Source: an uncultured Clostridia bacterium
GTDB taxonomy: Bacteria; Bacillota; Clostridia; Oscillospirales; Ruminococcaceae
Length of the DNA: 64,000 nucleotides
Direction of reading: 5' to 3'
Assembly: GCA_947307175.1 (NCBI GenBank)
Contig: CAMZIK010000002.1
Coordinates: 1 to 64,000 of the forward strand
The notes beneath the pieces are model-generated. The model was given only the letters and a program-made list of their open reading frames with translations. It was not told the origin of the DNA and searched no databases. Below are positions 35,508 to 36,849 of this stretch, piece by piece. Position numbers and translations under genes: made by a program. Positions within the stretch are counted from its first letter, which is position 1; each line of letters opens with the position of its first letter.

Positions 35508-36272
35508 TTATATCATACTGCCCCATTTTTCGTAAAGTTCTGAGCTTGCTGAGGTCAAAAGTATCATCATTCCCGTTGCAAAATCAAGAATTGCGTGGGC
35601 TATCATTATCGGCAGTGGGTTTTTATTCTTCTGATAATTGCGGCAGAAAATAACTGTTAATGGCAGAAATGACAATAATCTGTAAAGCATATACTTTGCA
35701 TCAAACATTGTCGGGATAAAGCAGTGCTGAAGTGCGTAGAAAAAAGCTGGAATGAATATTGCAGCGTACTTGTTCTTAAAGCTGTTGACACCAAGACCGA
35801 GATAAAGCCCGTCCTCTGCAAAGCTGACAGTTGCAGGCAGAACGATAAGATTTATCACCGCAATAGCAAGCGGGATCGGAGCAACGACATCGAGTGCTGC
35901 TTTCGGCATCACCGAACCGTAGCAGATGAGTCCTGCAGCGTACATTCCAGACATTCCGACAGCACAGAAAAGAATGACAAGTATTATCGTCCTTTTCGGC
36001 GTGTCCAATCCTTTTTTCAGATTCAGCTGCTCGCGGTAGGTCTTGCCGTGCTTTTTAGCGACAAGCACTATAAGCAGTATCGTTACGATATTTACTGCAC
36101 TTGCTACTATCGACCACCAGTTGTTTATCTCGCCTACTTTTTTATCAACGATAAGCGCACCTATCAGAAATACAAGCAGAAATACTATGCAGCGAAAAGG
36201 CAGAAAAAGTGCCAGTTTACTGTTTTTGCTCTCGTTTTGTGTCATTGTTTTTTCTCCTTTTTCCAAACTCAT
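35508..36272 (-). CDS. CPBP-like membrane protein (degenerate first motif)
   Basis: 254-aa polytopic; AEDGLYLGLG in place of EExxxR, FYALQHCFIP, IAHAILDF. Confidence 0.65.
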   Translation of the reverse strand: MSLEKGEKTMTQNESKNSKLALFLPFRCIVFLLVFLIGALIVDKKVGEINNWWSIVASAVNIVTILLIVLVAKKHGKTYREQLNLKKGLDTPKRTIILVILFCAVGMSGMYAAGLICYGSVMPKAALDVVAPIPLAIAVINLIVLPATVSFAEDGLYLGLGVNSFKNKYAAIFIPAFFYALQHCFIPTMFDAKYMLYRLLSFLPLTVIFCRNYQKNKNPLPIMIAHAILDFATGMMILLTSASSELYEKWGSMI

Positions 36273-36280
36273 TTCAAAAA

Positions 36281-36296
36281 TGTTTCACGTGAAACA
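36281..36296. promoter_or_regulatory. parS: parS-type ParB/Spo0J binding site
   Basis: Exact TGTTTCACGTGAAACA within the 22-bp perfect palindrome AAATGTTTCACGTGAAACATTT (36278-36299); intergenic. Confidence 0.88.
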
Positions 36297-36306
36297 TTTG
36301 TTCTTG

Positions 36307-36723
36307 TCAGTCGACCTCAAAAGACATTTCTCCGTCTTCACACTTACCGTTTGTTTCTACGATAATGTATACCTTTTCGTTTGTCAGACCTTTTACAGAG
36401 CCTCTTTCCTGCTCACCTTCACGTGCAGAGAAAAGCTTCTTTTTTGTGCCGTCATGGTCATAATATATCTGTGCATTGCCTTTTTGAAGTTTTGCGGAAT
36501 ATTTGAGCTTTGCCTGTGAACCGTTTTGGCTTTTAAGCTCAAATACTATCGTTCCTTCAAATTCCGAGAAATTCATTTTTGCCGAATCATCGGTATTTGA
36601 GTGAACGAATGCGACAGCTTTATAGCTTGATTTATAAGGGCAGCAGCCTGCAAAGCACAGCAAGCAGATAATTCCTGCAAGAATAAGTGTTATCGCTTTT
36701 TTCATTTTTGGTTTCCTATTTTC
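36307..36723 (-). CDS. Small putative lipoprotein (approximate start at MKKAITLILAG; the ORF extends to 36765)
   Basis: MKKAITLILAGIICLLCFAGCCPYKSS: signal peptide with lipobox-like FAGC. Confidence 0.6.
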   Translation of the reverse strand, partial: ENRKPKMKKAITLILAGIICLLCFAGCCPYKSSYKAVAFVHSNTDDSAKMNFSEFEGTIVFELKSQNGSQAKLKYSAKLQKGNAQIYYDHDGTKKKLFSAREGEQERGSVKGLTNEKVYIIVETNGKCEDGEMSFEVD

Positions 36724-36849
36724 CCTATATCCAGTCAAGACCCACACCACTTTTGTTAAATACAAATGTGTTATGGGTCTTTCGTGGTTATGAATACTAT
36801 CTTTTCAGCTATTTTAATACTATCCTTACTTTTTGCGCAAAAGTTCTTA

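Follow-up and report, generated by a model that had tools for sequence, protein, structure and literature searches.

Chromosomal parS, the site of the ParABS (Spo0J/ParB) system, is regarded as a small set of loading sites close to the origin, and its 16-bp consensus is TGTTNCACGTGAAACA. The usual number of such sites is 1-20 per genome (PMC10197239). Wider distributions have been described for related sites: the NBS of Bacillus (TATTTCCCGGGAAATA) are dispersed palindromes for a ParB-family clamp, while in Pseudomonas many dispersed half-parS sites are bound by ParB (PMC7022226). The locus described here resembles each of these systems and departs from each of them. With ParABS it shares an identical 16-bp core and a genome that has parA and parB, with parS clustered at this locus; however, its copies are dispersed genome-wide, with up to ~109 exact copies, and carry on one side a conserved tail that is missing from the parAB-locus copies. 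As regards the Bacillus system, the dispersal is similar and in Ruminococcus a Noc-like gene adjoins parAB, but the sequence is that of parS, NBS is absent from the source genome, and the Eggerthellaceae, where the same class of site occurs, are without Noc. Finally, the Pseudomonas sites are heptamers (PMC7022226), whereas here full palindromes are found together with a second element.

In the window, that is, the whole 64-kb stretch of DNA analysed, an exact motif search located the palindromic core TGTTTCACGTGAAACA at 36281..36296 (no strand assigned), in agreement with the parS consensus. The core lies inside a perfect 22-bp palindrome, AAATGTTTCACGTGAAACATTT (36278..36299, also without strand), made up of the core and its A/T-rich flanks; this is the element that an earlier, sequence-only reading of the window had recorded, and both its nature and its position were confirmed. 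The same reading had considered a random 16-bp match very unlikely, and indeed an exact 16-mer is expected by chance only ~2e-5 times per window and 0.0012 times per genome (at ~44% G+C), the second-best parS match within the window having 3 mismatches. The palindrome is, nevertheless, asymmetric in its context: on its right side TTTGTTC, followed by T, runs on to 36303/36304. This one-sided tail (36297..36303, plus strand), which had been missed in the earlier reading although it is common to nearly all dispersed copies of the genome, combines with the core into the 23-bp composite site that characterises the dispersed class. The core was also correctly described as intergenic, since it occupies a 61-bp gap separating two minus-strand genes, both regarded as neighbours only: a CPBP/Rce1-like membrane protease gene (PF02517, 35511..36272), whose most likely start is the ATG at 36245, with a good RBS, and a small lipoprotein-like gene without family match (36307..36765), whose end at 36307 places its stop codon 3 bp past the tail.

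The source genome (G000) is a Ruminococcus of 3.59 Mb in 319 contigs, and contains 16 exact cores, against 0.0012 expected, plus a few near copies. Four of the 16 lie within 2.4 kb on one contig (C89), at a parA-parB-noc locus including mnmG, mnmE, a gene for a Noc-like ParB paralogue, parA and parB; the sequence-only reading had tied its claim to a parB homologue, and the genome has one here, in company with parA, the paralogue and four parS. The remaining 12 exact cores, and 4 near-exact ones, occur singly on separate contigs, are intergenic, and are found between tandem and between convergent genes, in both orientations. Nearly all of them continue on one side with the tail, the form being TGTTTCACGTGAAACA-TTTGTTC(T/C), and the alignment of the G000 copies revealed this tail on 15/16 dispersed copies vs 0/4 of those at the parAB locus. 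Beyond ~24 bp no sequence common to the G000 copies was found. The choice offered earlier, between an origin-proximal locus and one outlying parS, is superseded by this distribution: the mapping of all exact cores did not bear out a single outlier, and many scattered copies, which the same reading had counted against a parS if they showed no origin bias, are indeed present, though as a composite, tailed class. An influence of ParB-CTP spreading on accessory genes nearby, which that reading had also suggested, is unsupported: the genes beside the sites have no theme in common, and the sites face both ways in tandem as well as convergent gaps. In addition, three more LexA-like genes and an extra, weakly ParB-like gene, which may derive from mobile elements, are present in this genome (contigs C9, C181, C107 and C210).

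Among the 29 Ruminococcus genomes compared, two separate clades are rich in tailed sites, one formed by the source genome with G004 and G017, and the other by the R. albus group (G022, G041, G012 and G005). The core is TTTCACGTGAAA in the former and TTCCACGTGGAA in the latter; within each genome the dispersed core is identical to that of its own parAB locus, apart from a few one-base variants, and the tail is kept in both clades. In G041, of the R. albus group, 16/17 dispersed exact sites are tailed, vs 0/7 near noc/parAB. Most of the 29 genomes have both ParB and Noc but few tailed sites or none, so that the tailed-site system is dispensable. Moreover, two orthologous loci could be compared, one upstream of trpS (G000 vs G004) and one between iorA-type and galactokinase-type genes (G000 vs G017), where the flanking genes are 78-84% identical: at both, the 23-bp motif is conserved in 22/23 positions, while the 40 bp on each side are at random level (9-15 of 40). 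Therefore, the site, including its tail, is under selection in place.

The complete R. albus-type chromosome (G022), of which 2.0 Mb of letters within the first 2.3 Mb were scanned, has its origin near coordinate 0, as judged by GC skew. Its exact tailed sites are at 96 kb, 257 kb and ~-139 kb, none is more than ~260 kb from parAB, and tailed sites with mismatched cores are found at 1.13 and 1.85 Mb. Ordering of the G000 contigs by synteny against this chromosome showed a scrambled gene order and gave no placement for the window contig.

An exact-motif scan of ~85,000 genomes matched, besides Ruminococcus and further Oscillospirales, many contigs of single Eggerthellaceae genomes (Actinomycetota); the scattered single matches in other taxa are, by our estimate, about what chance would give beside ordinary parS sites. 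Exact cores number 109 in Eggerthella sinensis, 78 in Gordonibacter pamelaeae and 21 in Raoultibacter timonensis, and arms with a NNNGTWC tail 85, 48 and 17, respectively, vs ~1.7, 1.2 and 0.3 expected; a reversed control pattern was not found in these three genomes. Of the 85 tailed arms of E. sinensis, 81 have pyrimidines at all three spacer positions; the general form of the tail is YYYGTWC. GTAC tails are common, one such variant being conserved between two Eggerthellaceae records, and the site at the uvrD locus is conserved in Eggerthella and Gordonibacter. The parB-locus sites displayed for this family are without tail. The Eggerthellaceae genomes examined each encode a single strong chromosomal ParB, and a search for Noc-type proteins gave no match in them. 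In the complete Gordonibacter genome the tailed sites lie between 0.45 and 3.23 Mb, and their distribution is not significantly biased to parB (KS p 0.13); the R. albus-type set is partly origin-biased, and the Gordonibacter set is not. Fork-trap polarity was considered and rejected, orientation being mixed in R. albus and weak at best in Gordonibacter, where by hand count ~26/38 one-sided sites point away from parB. Two further arrangements were observed. In E. sinensis (G045) about a dozen sites are tailed on both sides, forming a 30-bp perfect palindrome (e.g. GAACGGGTGTTTCACGTGAAACACCCGTTC, C3:43337-43366), and in Rubneribacter and relatives (L294, L313, L341, L356, L367, L379) there is a longer repeat, parS-TTTGTTC-N2-ATATCGCAC..CATTGCGACA-N2-parS, often close to contig ends.

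The explanation that we favour, giving it about an even chance, is that the window site is a dispersed composite parS, at which a ParB-family clamp would load and whose tail would be a second recognition element. The CTP clamp, either ParB or, in Ruminococcus, possibly the Noc-like paralogue, would recognise the core and load there, while the tail (TTTGTTC; in general YYYGTWC) would act as a directional element, read by a partner protein or by the clamp itself, and would distinguish the dispersed loading sites from the cluster at parAB that forms the centromere. The whole set might then, like the Noc sites of Bacillus, help to organise the chromosome genome-wide or act in nucleoid occlusion, and not serve as the centromere. 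Against this explanation, a palindromic clamp site alone leaves the one-sided tail unaccounted for, the system is dispensable for most of the Ruminococcus genomes with ParB and Noc, and the Noc-like protein has Q-K-R-R as its specificity residues, which predicts NBS and not parS as its target. A further candidate, the tail as a third ParB half-site, was rejected because the C/T choice in the tail is decoupled from that in the core: G000 has a TTTC core with a TTC tail, and G041 a TTCC core with tails that are often TTT.

The recurrence of tailed sites in another phylum suggests an undescribed second class of parS used away from the origin, and no earlier description of a tailed dispersed class was found in the literature (open-licence papers). 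More tentatively, and with less than even credence, such a class could be widespread (at least two phyla), with clamps loading genome-wide and a tail-reading partner that captures or licenses the clamp, in principle much as with Noc or with a locked KorB-KorA clamp. If true, ParB-type clamps would have a genome-wide job in gut bacteria of two phyla, and a second DNA determinant would distinguish the centromere from the dispersed sites.

Two other explanations deserve detailed consideration, although both are unlikely. The first is that parS is fused to a LexA (SOS) box, so that ParB-clamp loading and LexA binding would compete or cooperate. The Gram-positive LexA/DinR box has the consensus GRAACRYNYGTTCG, and its GAAC-N4-GTTC spacing is matched by the tail taken together with the inner half of parS, which read GAAAC-ATTT-GTTC; GAAACATTTGTTCT agrees with the consensus in 13/14 positions, with the right spacing. 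The window site itself reads AAAC-ATTT-GTTC, and the R. albus copies have the exact GAAC-ATTT-GTTC. Furthermore, the lexA promoters of Eggerthellaceae contain GAACCTTTGTTCG, and that of Gordonibacter additionally AAAACATTTGTTCG, the recognition helix of Eggerthella LexA is Bacillus-like, and DNA-repair genes (uvrD, ada/alkA) account for 2/10 of the Eggerthellaceae neighbours scanned. In Ruminococcus, however, the LexA recognition helix is different (KSTSTAHRYI vs SSPSTVHVHL), no LexA box was found at the lexA promoter, and the neighbours of the sites are not SOS genes. In the 2.0 Mb of G022, intergenic GAACN4GTTC comprises only the parS-tailed sites and one hairpin, with none at uvrA, and there are thus no stand-alone boxes in the sequence scanned. 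The GTAC tails, tolerated and even conserved, also speak against a LexA box.

The second, to which we likewise attach a low probability, is that the tailed sites of Ruminococcus belong to the Noc-like paralogue alone, as an NBS peculiar to this lineage, the untailed cluster being left to ParB. The Noc-like gene is present in 29/29 Ruminococcus genomes; the best family for the protein encoded on C89 is TIGR04285, at 273.9 bits, below the cut-off of 315, which makes it Noc-like but not certified; its nearest solved structures are those of Noc, and its N-terminus is amphipathic. Canonical NBS were not found in G000 or in the 2.0 Mb of G022, where other dispersed parS- or NBS-like palindromes were also searched for and not found. 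Nevertheless, the Eggerthellaceae have the same site class without Noc, tailed sites are missing in most Ruminococcus species that have Noc, and the Q-K-R-R residues predict NBS binding according to the specificity rules of Jalal et al. (PMC7383237). Throughout the genus, NBS-type residues (Q-K-R/K-R) were observed in the Noc-like proteins of nearly all species (L131-L159), and NBS is absent or very rare. The window site as a canonical NBS (ATTTCCCGGGAAAT) was rejected, its sequence being that of parS and NBS being absent from both G000 and G022.

The remaining explanations are far less probable. The two-part, asymmetric structure of the site and the location of some copies just upstream of genes would suit a transcription factor of another kind whose operator contains parS by coincidence; this is very improbable, as the 16-bp core is identical to the parS of each clade and varies with it between clades, and a common functional theme among the genes flanking the Ruminococcus sites, such as a regulon would show, was looked for and not found. 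In favour of a mobile repeat, of which the site would be one end, or of an intrinsic terminator hairpin, the sites are multi-copy and intergenic, some lie close to low-complexity repeats or real terminators, copies of the R. albus clade often adjoin a partial repeat, and the longer Rubneribacter repeat bears parS. There is very little chance of either being correct: the common sequence of the G000 copies ends at ~24 bp, the sites remain fixed at orthologous loci though the flanks diverge, separate terminators lie upstream of them, and their orientation to genes varies. Finally, a plain outlying parS with a chance A/T-rich flank as its tail would agree with the exact core and with the outlying parS sites that occur in other bacteria, but is hardly credible with a tail that is borne by nearly all dispersed and by none of the parAB-locus copies, stays conserved where the flanks have diverged and occurs in two phyla.

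Some other features were observed in Ruminococcus. Tandem parS arrays occur beside noc in G012 (contig C85, L144, 440-926 and 2082-2424; at least 19 copies with a period of ~47 bp), and a similar array, with a 45-bp period and CATGTG cores, is present in G024 (contig C32, L157, 817-1267). In some species (L141/L160, both G016; L150, L154, L157 and L158) the noc/parAB-locus cores drift to CATGTG, CACATG or GCGTG centres, and these genomes are without tailed dispersed sites. In the 2.0 Mb of G022, GCAGATATATCTGC occurs 10 times (L167, L177, L195, L198, L218, L234 and L258) as a dispersed palindrome without explanation, and CTCCCC-N4-GGGGAG occurs 71 times in the sequence scanned.
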